A model generated the notes under the pieces. The model was given only the letters and a program-made list of their open reading frames with translations. It did no database searches and was not told where the DNA came from. Both the position numbers and the translations under genes were made by a program. DNA of 64,000 nt. It comes from a virus. Positions 2,461-11,159 of this stretch are shown here, one piece after another. Position 1 is the stretch's first letter. Every line of letters starts with the position of its first letter. The stretch covers positions 1 to 64,000 of the IMG/VR virus record IMGVR_UViG_3300042521_002336, one strand, 5' to 3'.

Positions 2461-2556
2461 GTTTAATCATTTACGTCTACAACCTACTTGCTTTGTGGCC
2501 ACTTGGACTGACTACCAAGAACTCGTGACTATCAATCATCGCGACGTTAATTAAAC
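2461..2556 (-). ncRNA. structured RNA C with bulged terminal stem
   Basis: GTTTAATTA plus ACGTC (2556-2543) pair with GACGT, a bulged AAA, and TGATTAAAC (2477-2461), giving 14 bp interrupted by one three-base bulge. Inside, CTTGG/CCAAG encloses an eight-base loop. Upstream in the same transcript, AACCAT/ATGGTT forms a hairpin right after a good promoter at 2601. No open frame. Confidence 0.5.
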
Positions 2557-2600
2557 ATCCTCACTCCGTTTAACCATACGGAAATGGTTTAATTTCTTAG

Positions 2601-2654
2601 TACAAAGGTAAGTAAACTTTTTCAATCTGCCAAACCTTTTAACAACTTATTAAC
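2601..2654 (-). promoter_or_regulatory. promoter for RNA C and tRNA-Tyr
   Basis: Minus strand GTTAATAAGTTGTTAA, then TTTGG, 20 bases from its TTG, TACCTTTG. This is a full match to the architecture shared by about ten promoters here. It overlaps the 3' end of the 2622-2795 gene. Confidence 0.75.
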
Positions 2655-2795
2655 TTTTCTTTTTTCTTGTTTTCGGTCGTAATACTTGGGACTTTTATGA
2701 GTCCGGGTAAAAGTCTTGACCGGAGTTCCTTCCCATTCTTTGAGAATGTTGTGGTAGGAGGGTTTTTGAATTTGAATTTTAGTTTTCTGTTTCAT
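2622..2795 (-). CDS. basic 57-residue protein
   Basis: ATG at 2795 gives a Lys-rich protein with the stretch SYHNILKEWEG and THKSPKYYDRK. Compact basic proteins of this look are common in large phages, but I cannot name the family. Its last codons overlap the promoter of RNA C. Upstream is a promoter combined with an inverted repeat. Confidence 0.6.
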   Translation of the reverse strand: MKQKTKIQIQKPSYHNILKEWEGTPVKTFTRTHKSPKYYDRKQEKRKVNKLLKGLAD

Positions 2796-2809
2796 TTCCG
2801 TTGTAATAA

Positions 2810-2881
2810 AAATGTGCCATAAAGGTACAATCCTCTAAGGCACATTTCCAAATGTTTTTACAGTATTAACAACTGGTTAAC
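2810..2881 (-). promoter_or_regulatory. promoter overlapped by a 9-bp inverted repeat
   Basis: Minus strand GTTAAC and GTTAAT eleven bases apart, then TTTGG, 21 bases from its TTG, TACCTTTA. AAATGTGCC lies just after TTTGG and GGCACATTT just after the -7 box, a perfect 9-bp inverted repeat that brackets the core promoter. It could be an operator, or a hairpin whose GGCACATTTTTATT end acts as a terminator. Confidence 0.55.
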
Positions 2882-2954
2882 ATAGGCAGTGCCTCGGCTT
2901 ATTGGATAAATAAAATCGTTCTTGTTTTTTCATACACATAAATATCCAAAATTT

Positions 2955-3218
2955 TTAGAAAACCTTTTTCAGGTCATGTGAATAAACAGCGCATTTATCT
3001 CCGTTTGTCCATTCGACTATTGACATTGGAACTTTTATTCCAAATAACTGCTCCAAAGCAAGTTGGTGCGTTTGTTCAGTGATAAAACCATAAGAACCAC
3101 ATTCGGGAATATCATACGAATAAATGTCGTTGTTGTTTTCGACTTTTAACCGAACCAAATTGCCTACTTCGAACGTAGGTTCTTCTTGTTTAGGTTCTAT
3201 AACTTTGGATTTTTTCAT
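2955..3218 (-). CDS. small beta-rich protein, SH3-like barrel guess
   Basis: Start at 3218 (MKKSKVIEPK) is preferred over an upstream in-frame ATG at 3248 because that leader is short and AT-rich. 87 residues with VGNLVRLKV, GSYGFITE and a V-W-x-N-G turn, as in small KOW or SH3-type barrels. It follows the TerD gene by 64 bases. The fold is inference only. Confidence 0.55.
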   Translation of the reverse strand: MKKSKVIEPKQEEPTFEVGNLVRLKVENNNDIYSYDIPECGSYGFITEQTHQLALEQLFGIKVPMSIVEWTNGDKCAVYSHDLKKVF

Positions 3219-3282: not shown

Positions 3283-5394
3283 TTAAATCCAACTTTTTCC
3301 AGTTACGGCTGGGGCAGTAGTTAAACCTTGGGTTAAATCTATGTCTACAATCGGAACTGAATTAAGCGTTTCTTCTGTCATCATTCTTGCAACCTGTTCC
3401 CACGTAGTATTTTCATCAAAAACAATATCGGCTTCTTCTTTTGTTTTCACAACCGAACCTGCCAATAAATCGATGATATGGCCTTGGGCAAGTTTTTTCC
3501 AATTAACTTCCTCTTTACCGTCATCCAAGATAACAAACTTTTCCAAGAATGTTCTCATCTTGATTACATCAGAGGCACTTGCAACAATGTTGTTCGTATC
3601 CAAAGCAACGTCTAAATAAACCAAGTTCTTAGTCGGAACGTGAACTGCGCACAAATAAGCGGTCTTTGAATTTGACGTTATTTTTGTCGCGTGTTCGACT
3701 GTTTCAGGTAACCAATGGTTGTTTCTTTCTGGTTTAGAACGTTGCATCCAACCACAAAGAACACCCTCATTTGGCCATTTATTGAAGTTTGGTCCGCGAA
3801 AAATTCGAGCGTCAAAAACAACCCATTCAACTCCGTCCAAATCATTCAAGTTTAGATCCAAGTATTCTGCGTTTTTATACGCATATCCGGTATTGTCCCC
3901 CGAATAAGTAATCGAGGTTCCGAATTTATGATCCCCGTTCCAACCAACTTTAACAACTGAATTGTCTTGATTGATTACAAAGGCAGACAAATCAATGTCG
4001 TGTTTTTCTACCCAGTGACAATAAACTCGTAAAGTTTTGTCTTCTGGAAGTTTTTCAACTGTTCCGATTGCTTTACTTGAAATTGAAAAACTTGATGCTC
4101 TATTGTTGGTTGCTAATGGAGAATAATACAAAGAACGGCCAATGAAAACTTTCTTAGTGTTTTTCATCTTAACTTTCTTGTAAATTTGAACCATCAACTT
4201 GCCTCGAATTTCCTCAACTACCTCAGAAGGCAATGCTTCCAATGCTCCGAAAGTTGAAACATTGCTTTTGTTCTGGTTAGCCAAAACAACGGCACGATCT
4301 TTCTCTTGGTCACGGTCGGAAAAATAATTGTAAAGGGTTACCAATTGTTCAAAAGTTGGTTCCAGTTTTACAAATTCGTCGATTGCGACCATTCCGAAGA
4401 CTTGAAACAATTGATTCATTCTTCTCATGTAAACACCTTTGCGTTTTGCAAGTAAATTGAAGATAGTAACATCTTTATTTTTAATTGCGAGTTCCAACCT
4501 TGAATTGAACGTCTTCAACTCTTTCGAGTTGTTCCGTAATTTCCACGCAAATGATGCAAGAATTGGAAATAACCGTTTATTTTCAGAAGTCAACGGATTC
4601 AGATAAAACAAAACTCGCAACCAAACTTCGCGATATGTTTTGAAACTTTCCTCCAAGTCATAACACTCATTTAAAGTACGCAAAAGCGCATTTTTAACTG
4701 AACGTTTTGGCTGTTTAAATTTAGTTTTATCTTTCAAACCTTCGTCTCCGCCACAATATGCAGCATAAATACGCAAAACATCAGTAGCGGAACGAACTGG
4801 AAGTTCTTTGCCCAAATCCAAATAACGCTTACCGATGTAAGCCTTGGTTTCTTTGAATGAAATGCGATTAAATTCCAATTCAGGGGCAAGGCCGTTATCA
4901 ATAAACCAGTCGACAATTTCTTTATCCCATTTAGAAATTGAACTTCCAGAATAGACGATATCAGTGAAAATTGAATCGAATTGACGTTCAGTTAACAAAG
5001 AAATTTCTTTGTAATTGACATCTTCCAACGCAAATTCGCGCTTCATAAATTCACTGTCTTCTGGCCGCCAAGTTCCAAATGACCAATAATGAGAAATTGC
5101 GTTCCAAACAAATTCTTCATGAGAAAGTGCTTGAACTGATTGAGGGAAATTTCGATAAATTGGTTCATAACCACTTTCACCGACAATAGTTTTCAAACCC
5201 TTACAAAGATCGTTGTAGACTTCTGTAAGTGTTTGTTGATCTTGTTTACCGAGAGCAATGTGAAGTTGCTCAGAACATACAAATCCGTATTTAAATAGTT
5301 CAGTTTGGATTTGCATTGCAAGTAATCTGTTACTTTCGGTTCCTTCATTTAGGAACAAACCTTTCCGCTTTTGAAAGGAAATAAAATGTTTCAT
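3283..5394 (-). CDS. TerD-domain protein with helical N-terminal region
   Basis: 703 residues. Roughly residues 440-560 read as a TerD (tellurite-resistance/stress) domain: DIDLSAFVI, an ITYSGDNTG motif, AEYLDLNLNDL and the following VVFDARIF. Before it, about residues 230-360 form a long helical region containing FNSRLELAIK and LLAKRKGVYMRRMNQLF. I remember a similar helical region in bacterial TerD-fusion proteins, but it has no name I can give. TerD domains bind calcium and belong to stress and anti-phage associated ter systems; the phage role is unknown. I first considered Ro60/TROVE but its signature motifs are absent. No clear promoter; it lies downstream of tRNA-Arg and a permuted tRNA-like RNA. 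Confidence 0.65.
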   Translation of the reverse strand: MKHFISFQKRKGLFLNEGTESNRLLAMQIQTELFKYGFVCSEQLHIALGKQDQQTLTEVYNDLCKGLKTIVGESGYEPIYRNFPQSVQALSHEEFVWNAISHYWSFGTWRPEDSEFMKREFALEDVNYKEISLLTERQFDSIFTDIVYSGSSISKWDKEIVDWFIDNGLAPELEFNRISFKETKAYIGKRYLDLGKELPVRSATDVLRIYAAYCGGDEGLKDKTKFKQPKRSVKNALLRTLNECYDLEESFKTYREVWLRVLFYLNPLTSENKRLFPILASFAWKLRNNSKELKTFNSRLELAIKNKDVTIFNLLAKRKGVYMRRMNQLFQVFGMVAIDEFVKLEPTFEQLVTLYNYFSDRDQEKDRAVVLANQNKSNVSTFGALEALPSEVVEEIRGKLMVQIYKKVKMKNTKKVFIGRSLYYSPLATNNRASSFSISSKAIGTVEKLPEDKTLRVYCHWVEKHDIDLSAFVINQDNSVVKVGWNGDHKFGTSITYSGDNTGYAYKNAEYLDLNLNDLDGVEWVVFDARIFRGPNFNKWPNEGVLCGWMQRSKPERNNHWLPETVEHATKITSNSKTAYLCAVHVPTKNLVYLDVALDTNNIVASASDVIKMRTFLEKFVILDDGKEEVNWKKLAQGHIIDLLAGSVVKTKEEADIVFDENTTWEQVARMMTEETLNSVPIVDIDLTQGLTTAPAVTGKSWI

Positions 5395-5421
5395 TTAATG
5401 AAATTTAAAAAGTGAATAATC

Positions 5422-5468
5422 TTTGAAGGTTGTTTAGAATGAAATGTAGTCATGTAGTAACCTTCAAA
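5422..5468 (-). other. 10-bp inverted repeat before the TerD gene
   Basis: TTTGAAGGTT and AACCTTCAAA are perfect complements around a 27-base loop, 28 bases upstream of the TerD start codon. It may be a leader hairpin controlling translation or a processing site between RNA genes and the mRNA. Confidence 0.5.
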
Positions 5469-5504
5469 ATGTTTCAGTTTGTTTTTTTATTTTCGACTAA
5501 TCTC

Positions 5505-5620
5505 GAAAAGTAATTTACGGCGCGTCTACCAGTTTCGCCACTCCCTGCGTTTTGAATTTATTAGGCAGGGAGGCAGGAATCGAACCTGCAATGTACCGGC
5601 TCCCAATGCAGTAACTTTTC
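5505..5620 (-). ncRNA. permuted tRNA-Leu-like RNA, copy 3 (best)
   Basis: In minus-strand order: GAAAAG-TTAC (5620-5611); a V-arm-like hairpin ATTGG/CCGGT; T arm GCAGG TTCGATT CCTGC; CTCCCTGC; 16 bases; GCAGGGAG, the perfect complement of CTCCCTGC; a Leu-type D arm (GGCGAAACTGGTAGACGC); then GTAA-ATTA-CTTTTC, which pairs with the start except for a bulged ATTA. The tRNA 3' half thus precedes its 5' half. Joined at the bulge it could give a Leu-UAA loop, but the expected discriminator A is C. It may be a permuted tRNA gene or a tRNA mimic. A competing TTTTCGA/TCGAAAA hairpin overlaps the 3' end. Confidence 0.6.
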
Positions 5621-5638
5621 AAATGTGTCAAAAAATTG

Positions 5639-5711
5639 TGATCCCGGCAGAATTCGAATCTGCAACTTATTCATTAGAAGTGAATTACTCTATCCGTTGA
5701 GTTACGGGACC
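5639..5711 (-). tRNA. tRNA-Arg (UCU)
   Basis: Acceptor GGTCCCG/CGGGATC, D stem ACTC/GAGT with GG in the loop, anticodon stem ATTCA/TGAAT with loop CTTCTAA (UCU), T arm GCAGA TTCGAAT TCTGC, discriminator A. All parts are canonical. It lies 18 bases upstream of the permuted RNA, so the two are probably cotranscribed. Confidence 0.9.
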
Positions 5712-5732
5712 AGATTAAAATTAAGTCTAATC

Positions 5733-5776
5733 TTCAAAGGTTTTATGAATTTACAAGTTTCGGAGTAACCTTTGAA
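5733..5776 (-). other. 10-bp inverted repeat before tRNA-Arg
   Basis: TTCAAAGGTT and AACCTTTGAA are perfect complements around 24 bases. The stem resembles the one at 5422-5468 with the halves exchanged, so the pair brackets tRNA-Arg and the permuted RNA. Both contain AAGGTT-type sequence that is over-represented elsewhere. Confidence 0.5.
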
Positions 5777-5792
5777 ATGTGACTTATAATTA

Positions 5793-10847: not shown

Positions 10848-11159
10848 TTAAAAGAATTTATCGTTTTGTTGTGTGTACGGTTCAATTTTAATTTTTAATC
10901 CCAAGTCTTTGTTTCTGCCTCGGAATTTTTCGCGATCGTAATCGTTATTCATCATTTCAGTATTTCGCCAATGTAAATGACCATTGTCATTATGATTCGT
11001 TTTACTTTTGGTCGTAACTGATTTATAAAGTTTCAAATCCTCGGCAGAGAGCATTTCAAGTTGTCGACGTTTCAGTTCCAAAAGAAACTTTTCAACCTCG
11101 GGTTCAGTACCAATAAAAGTTTCATTGATACTTCCGGTAACTTTAAGACGTTTAGTCAT
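10848..11159 (-). CDS. unknown 103-residue charged protein
   Basis: Short beta N-terminus (KRLKVTGSINETFIG), a helix rich in Glu and Leu, then a polar Asn/Asp/Arg tail. Starts inside the end of the upstream gene (8 base overlap). No family recognised. Confidence 0.6.
   Translation of the reverse strand: MTKRLKVTGSINETFIGTEPEVEKFLLELKRRQLEMLSAEDLKLYKSVTTKSKTNHNDNGHLHWRNTEMMNNDYDREKFRGRNKDLGLKIKIEPYTQQNDKFF

Follow-up and report, generated by a model that had tools for sequence, protein, structure and literature searches.

We analysed a window of 64,000 nucleotides of viral DNA, corresponding to positions 1 to 64,000 of IMG/VR record IMGVR_UViG_3300042521_002336, in which a minus-strand element at positions 5492-5632 (hereafter E2) consists of a Y-RNA-like basal stem carrying a circularly permuted module that resembles transfer RNA for leucine (tRNA-Leu). 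E2 is flanked by two minus-strand hairpins of the same design that have no tRNA module, E1 (5722-5786) and E3 (approximately 5413-5476). All three elements lie directly upstream of, and on the same strand as, an open reading frame (ORF) at 3283-5394, the predicted 703-residue product of which is a distant homologue of the SCO0854/MXAN_6230 family. An ordinary tRNA-Arg(tct) gene (5638-5711, minus strand) stands between E1 and E2; it forms part of the context and lies outside the mimic.

Read along the minus strand, E2 begins with the outer stem strand TTTGAC (5627-5632), followed by ACAT (5623-5626), which is the 5′ side of an internal loop, the 5′ strand of a 9-bp inner stem (TTGAAAAGT, 5614-5622) and TACTGC (5608-5613). 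Next come a T arm (GCAGG-TTCGATT-CCTGC, 5573-5589), an acceptor hairpin (5541-5572) and a Leu-type D arm (GCG-AAACTGGTAGA-CGC, 5522-5538), and the element is closed by the inner-stem partner ACTTTTCGA (5503-5511), the 3′ side of the internal loop, GATTA (5498-5502), and the outer-stem partner GTCGAA (5492-5497). The original prediction, made from the sequence alone, had proposed that the T arm and acceptor 3′ strand precede the acceptor 5′ strand and D arm. This permuted order was confirmed on the minus strand, and the acceptor strands CTCCCTGC (5565-5572) and GCAGGGAG (5541-5548) pair perfectly, as had been stated, forming 8 bp around a 16-nt loop. The outer ends (GAAAAG-TTAC and GTAA-ATTA-CTTTTC) also pair, but they do not play the part of the anticodon stem that had been assigned to them: the counterpart of that stem is CCGGT (5595-5599), which faces GCCGT (5517-5521) and forms four of five pairs in the best of 12 placements. 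Similarly, the closing stem that had been noticed does exist, but it represents only a portion of a two-part basal helix extending over the whole of 5632-5492.

The centroid structure computed by RNAfold for E2 contains the basal stem, the T and acceptor helices and one D-arm helix, whereas the D region is paired differently in the minimum free energy (MFE) structure. The z-score of the fold is -2.5, and equal stability was reached in 3 of 200 shuffled sequences. Neither ARAGORN nor Rfam at its gathering threshold listed a tRNA at the site. R2, a covariance model of the module to which the window gave no sequence, matched 5594-5517 on the minus strand (28.5 bits, E ~2e-5). The noise of R2 consists of junctions between adjoining ordinary tRNAs, some of which outscore E2 elsewhere (47 bits in the record numbered L006 and 45 bits in L007); because such tandem-tRNA junctions also score, an R2 match is not sufficient proof alone. 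Single-protein scans of the viral_contigs set returned either L001 and L002 only, as close relatives, or none. The counterpart of E2 carries one substitution in L001 and none in L002, and in the acceptor of L001 a single change keeps the pair as G-U.

The closing stem recurs without the module. The internal-loop letters ACAT and GATTA are identical in E1, E2 and E3, the motif UACUNC is common to all three, and the window contains the pattern ACAT-stem-TACT...stem-GATTA three times and no more, at 5780, 5626 and 5472, each time on the minus strand. The MFE structure of E1 corresponds to the family fold described below (z -3.7), and the region containing E3 (5402-5478) has a z-score of -3.0. The inner stems of E1 and E3 differ in sequence yet still pair. 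Additional ACAT/GATTA hairpins were seen in tRNA arrays several kilobases from the gene, at 11088 and 13651 in L001 and at 13631 in L002, and one of these copies has a different inner stem in which pairing is kept. Because E1 and E3 have no tRNA part, their inner stems vary while remaining paired, and extra copies exist, the closing stem is a unit of its own, with the tRNA-like part as its cargo.

How widely is this hairpin distributed? Hairpin arrays occupy the gaps beside several homologues of ORF 3283-5394. We surveyed 80 bacterial loci, which were the best 80 of 175 relatives and came mostly from Paenibacillus, together with 60 viral loci. A paired-stem descriptor found flanking copies in 66 bacterial and 34 viral loci (208 matches), and the controls gave 2 antisense matches and 4 in shuffled flanks; a further 2 matches lay at a greater distance and 7 within ORFs as called. 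The family consensus consists of an outer stem ending in GG, CUAU, an inner stem of 8-10 bp, UCCUUCUA, a variable module, the inner stem again, AUUU/GCUUU, CC and the outer stem, with UMCUNC as the motif of the basal stem; TACTGC in E2 is the likely counterpart of TCCTTC/TACTTC in the family. Among 51 aligned copies, 306 cells were changed on both sides of a pair, compared with 96 in shuffles.

From these 51 hairpins, none of which came from the window or from records L001-L017, we built a covariance model (R1). In 18 held-out records R1 gave 24 matches, all on the strand of the gene and close by, in 11 records (XacN1, Weasels2, RpAliso, RcXuper, LpeD, L005, L008, Niallia, Variovorax, Vibrio and Streptomyces). 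Across the 140 surveyed loci, 33 of which had contributed to R1 and among which near duplicates were kept in the counts (L104/L105, L134/L151, L116-L118, L119/L120/L153, L123/L125-L127 and others with equal scores), it marked all 80 bacterial loci (153 matches) and 57 of the 60 viral loci (217 matches, 215 of them less than 2 kb from the gene), in each case on the gene's strand. Every viral locus with a match has between one and nine copies. ORFs were called from the first ATG, GTG or TTG, and a viral match was counted as outside an ORF if it shared at most 200 bases with the start of the ORF or 60 with its end; by this rule, 3 of the 217 viral matches overlap an ORF as called. In 12 whole genomes, with at most 150 candidates scored per genome, all 22 matches fell in the locus of the gene and none occurred elsewhere at E ≤ 0.001. 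The hairpins thus form a covarying RNA family tied to this gene family. Rfam at its gathering threshold reported only tRNAs and transfer-messenger RNAs (tmRNAs) in L003-L009 and one tRNA in L010-L017, leaving the hairpins unmatched, and the family is apparently undescribed.

The arrangement of the copies varies. Four hairpin matches at 4440-4854 of L024 are the maximum among the 80 bacterial loci, and in the Brevibacillus loci L049, L051 and L054 (~3087-3175) one copy lies about 1.8 kb upstream and another directly before the gene. In a Ruegeria phage (L006, 2412-2744) and a Rhodobacter phage (L007, 2035-2471), a permuted tmRNA (RF04321, alpha_tmRNA) directly precedes the hairpin array, whose copies in the Rhodobacter phage, RcXuper, lie at 2462-3060, and tmRNA matches also occur in or near the tRNA arrays of two phage loci that have the gene (L005, 808-1105; L106, 1679-2081).

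The permuted module itself is not confined to the window. A strict descriptor, in which a T arm had to be followed by an acceptor hairpin of 7 bp and this by a D arm, gave 19 matches in 14 of 158 records (1.84 Mb, both strands, near duplicates included) and none on the reversed sequences of the same records; a looser descriptor with longer loops also caught one ordinary tRNA-tRNA junction (L002, 13201). Among long viral elements, 19 of 28 have the module; another six elements, that of the window included, were added because they have it, which gives 25 elements from 17 records, two duplicate pairs among them. At the position of the anticodon stem, a full 5-bp helix can be formed in 16 of these 25 elements (best of 12 placements), and this counterpart varies by compensation (e.g., ATAGT/ACTAT, AAAGT/ACTTT, CCGGT/ACCGG and GCAGT/ACTGT). 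For 16 module cores, which were cut with the anticodon-stem pairing in view, 64 cells were changed on both sides as against 19 in shuffles, and the score exceeded that of all 500 shuffles. The original prediction had named a lack of covariation in related phages as the finding that would count against it; the opposite was observed, with covariation both in the hairpins of the family and in the module. In one element (L129, 3393-3523), the cargo looks by eye like a tRNA in normal order, with its anticodon hairpin capped by UUCG.

What protein do these RNAs accompany? The product of ORF 3283-5394 has N-terminal helices and a C-terminal TerD domain (residues ~447-616). It matches NF041916 with E 2.3e-39 and 135.3 bits, under the equivalog cut-off of 600, so that by sequence it is a divergent homologue of that family; it also matches phrog_33734 (E 3e-37). 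All eight proteins of a set comprising the window protein and seven phage homologues (A2) match NF041916, with a best E of 1e-126. Homologues are encoded by phages XacN1, Weasels2, RpAliso, RcXuper, SCTP-2, LpeD and others, as well as by bacterial plasmids. Several cellular members have a RING-type cysteine stretch, which the window protein and those of L005 and L010 lack, as judged by eye from the alignment. Searches of the ORF and its homologues with TROVE, Pfam and PADLOC gave nothing above cut-off, and phmmer against PDB gave a chance match only.

Structure prediction suggests that the helical part is Ro60-like, although we do not class it as Ro60. AlphaFold2 models of the window protein (mean predicted local distance difference test score, pLDDT, 79.9) and of a Niallia homologue (pLDDT 90.7) align over 294-313 residues with, in all, five Ro60 entries, which include human Ro60, Rsr of D. 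radiodurans and the Ro60 of Thermus phage phiLo. Human Ro60 complexes were matched by the window model at Z 10.6 and 10.5, and phiLo Ro60, human Ro60 and Rsr by the Niallia model at Z 7.1, 6.1 and 5.8; all of these scores (5.8-10.6) are modest and lower than about 13, the value under which the tool advises caution with helical repeats. Among the 50 matches listed, only Ro60s are aligned over at least 290 residues. At the C-terminus both models have a TerD domain (best Z 15.1 and 15.9) in place of the vWA domain of Ro60. In the comparison of the family with eight TROVE proteins by hhalign, the best local match covers 26 columns (P 0.03-0.04) and lies directly before TerD in the window family; on the Rsr side, we take it to sit directly before vWA. 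The original prediction had recognised no TROVE gene. By sequence this statement stands, but the family of the adjoining ORF had been missed, with RNAs beside its relatives and a Ro60-like predicted fold.

Genes with names that refer to RNA repair are found near the gene in six annotated records, without a control set: rtcR in Variovorax, an RNA ligase in Vibrio, RtcB in Weasels2 and a nucleotidyltransferase in XacN1, RpAliso and RcXuper. In the Variovorax locus (L011, 999-6536), rtcR is found three genes from the SCO0854-type gene and on the other strand, an arrangement that recalls the RNA-repair operons with Ro60. The search for RtcB that the original prediction had proposed found none in the 69.6 kb of the window's own record, which may be a fragment.

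Taking these features together, we consider E2 to be, with fair probability, a phage non-coding RNA (ncRNA) that belongs to a Y-RNA-like family and has a dedicated Ro60-like partner protein. The suggestion of a Y-RNA-like tRNA mimic, which the original prediction had offered as its alternative, is supported in architecture. The basal stem, with its outer helix, asymmetric internal loop, inner helix and UMCUNC motif, would be the probable docking site for the ORF 3283-5394 protein, in which Ro60-like helical repeats would be combined with a TerD domain, and the apical module would copy three arms of a tRNA (acceptor, T and D). Because the basal stem enters at the place of the anticodon loop, the module could not decode and would offer anticodon nucleases no anticodon loop. 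Most likely, by analogy with YrlA, the protein would grip one end of the RNA, and the other end, shaped like a tRNA, would recruit an enzyme that handles tRNAs or compete with them for such an enzyme, in RNA surveillance or repair during infection. The neighbours named for RNA repair fit an enzyme-recruiting role. A mimic without an anticodon loop would also suit the idea, put forward in a passage of PMC7790460, that YrlA acts as a competitive inhibitor of an anticodon nuclease. RNA binding by the protein, transcription of E2 as a free RNA and its function are what we infer here.

More broadly, we lean towards the view that the SCO0854-type proteins are RNA-binding ring proteins of a second, Ro60-like class and have a Y-like RNA family of their own, as yet unnamed. 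One to several copies of this RNA would stand by the gene on chromosomes of Bacillota, on plasmids and in numerous phages, and its apical module would be exchangeable, being a full permuted tRNA mimic in some phages and seemingly a tRNA in normal order in one copy. A dedicated ncRNA would give the SCO0854/MXAN_6230 family, for which we found no described function in the open-licence PubMed Central (PMC) literature, a testable role in RNA handling. If this is true, the logic of the Y RNAs, in which a protein-bound stem is joined to a tRNA-shaped effector end, would operate in a second protein setting that arose either by deep divergence from Ro60 or by convergence. Phage tRNA mimics without an anticodon loop, some of them near RNA-repair genes, would point to a contest over host tRNA cleavage. 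No paper pairing such RNAs with the SCO0854 family was found in the listed titles and abstracts of the open-licence PMC literature, which is not proof of absence from print.

Several observations weigh against this interpretation. First, the weakest link of the whole case is the window itself, where R1 scores are low (E1, 16.5 bits, E 8e-4; E3, 8.9 bits, E 0.07; both in a 511-base search), E2 is unmatched as folded, and a search of all 18 records at E ≤ 5 gave no match in the window; we regard the window hairpins as divergent members, whose membership we infer from the common architecture, neighbourhood and module. Second, R1 was silent in the held-out records L001, L002, L009, L014, L015 and L017 and gave no match in the viral loci L136, L139 and L157. 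Third, the pairing percentage of the family is high by construction, because the paired-stem descriptor picked the hairpins first. Fourth, the module script rejected nine of the 28 long viral elements, although by eye two of these (L112 and L098) still look permuted; a third (L106, 5886-5993) is, by eye, without a T arm, and a fourth is the L129 element with its cargo in normal order. Fifth, the likeness of the protein to Ro60 is confined to predicted structure: the TROVE profile PF05731 was not found in the protein, its homologues or the 69.6-kb record, hhalign against the eight TROVE proteins returned a probability of 1.4% and no support for homology, and Foldseek alone gave no Ro60 among the 50 matches listed for either model, the Ro60 alignments, with their scores in the tool's caution range, having come from a second structure comparison (VIA).

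Could the hairpins instead be parts of the messenger RNA? They might act in cis, the protein or another factor binding the leader or trailer to tune the protein's own expression, with the tRNA module as an ornament or a tRNA-sensing switch. The strand of every match and the position of all three window hairpins upstream of the ORF agree with such a role, and at many Paenibacillus loci the copies immediately precede the gene, with roughly 10 bases often separating the end of the nearer one from position 5001. Moreover, 122 of the 153 bacterial matches start upstream of the called ORF; another 15 begin inside its first 110 bases, a stretch in which the real start of the ORF is uncertain. The viral matches, however, are divided between 113 upstream and 104 downstream (n = 217), often in multiple copies per locus, two Niallia loci have downstream matches only, and the copies of the ACAT/GATTA stem in the tRNA arrays of L001 and L002 are several kilobases from the gene. 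We regard a cis-acting role as unlikely.

The nearest known RNA to E2 is YrlA (RF02553), in which a T arm, a hairpin acceptor and a D arm follow one another in the same order above a long closing stem. According to passages of PMC8394870, Rsr is bound by the basal stem of YrlA and PNPase by its tRNA-like domain, and rsr and Y RNA genes may sit in RNA-repair operons. One might propose that E2 is a standard YrlA RNA whose TROVE protein is encoded, unrecognised, elsewhere in the phage. The YrlA model does match E2 over its full length, though weakly (17.6 bits, E 0.8 in 701 bases), and it gives 30-43 bits for several of the relatives' modules, which resembles its weak matches at 3 of 11 loci that match Pfam TROVE (31-44 bits; 3.2-3.9 kb each). 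Every score seen is nevertheless below the gathering score of 69, TROVE was not found in the possibly fragmentary record, and R1 had no match in any of the 11 TROVE-matching loci. The basal stem also carries other conserved motifs than that of YrlA: GG-CUAU...UCCUUCUA...AUUU-CC in the family and ACAU...UACUNC...GAUUA in the window version. Unlike YrlA, most copies of the family have no tRNA module and up to nine stand at a single viral locus, and the partner, in which no TROVE sequence is detectable, has TerD. We judge this proposal improbable.

Permuted tRNA genes, in which the two halves are encoded in permuted order, occur in algae and archaea. The order of the halves in E2 is like theirs, and the helix at the ends and the Leu-type D arm would also be in keeping with the first proposal of the original prediction, a gene from whose transcript circularisation and cleavage would make a working tRNA-Leu. 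This proposal is not supported. E2 has no anticodon loop and no evident tRNA-making route, since by eye no 7-nt anticodon loop can be formed from its ends; the two-part stem in which the module ends has the same design as in the two tRNA-free neighbours; 185 of 209 descriptor-found copies of the family are shorter than 104 nt; and in the 14 relatives with listed cores, the acceptor loop measures just 3-15 nt. We consider such a gene very improbable. That E2 is a decayed tRNA-Leu fragment or a chance pairing, as the tRNA-rich region and the weak R1 scores of the window might suggest, is hardly credible in view of the strict-descriptor matches and their absence from reversed sequence, the compensatory changes across relatives and the acceptor pairing kept in L001.

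Jumbo phages with TROVE proteins are already known, as stated in a passage of PMC7824862. In Listeria phage CKA15, an Rsr-type gene has been suggested near tRNA genes and three abundant candidate ncRNAs, and in the part of PMC12282133 concerned, the authors consider that highly transcribed regions may be Y RNAs. The CKA15 protein differs from the family described here in being a 56.8-kDa protein matched to Rsr by HHPred (same passage), and no Listeria phage was matched by tblastn with four members of our family.

Some further RNA matches were seen in the window and the other loci. Two tRNAs of the window, at 1303-1369 and 1877-1971, were detected by Rfam and missed by ARAGORN. In Segatella (L017, 3305-3427), a 123-nt tRNA match with a long insert lies just before the gene, and similar tRNA matches of 107-149 nt are found in the Pfam-TROVE loci L167-L172. 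In two Rsr-type loci (L164, 1026-1122; L165, 3053-3118), the nematode RNA model RF01656 scored 37.4 and 34.6 bits against a cut-off of 38, and these near-matches are possibly Y RNAs of the Ro60 class.
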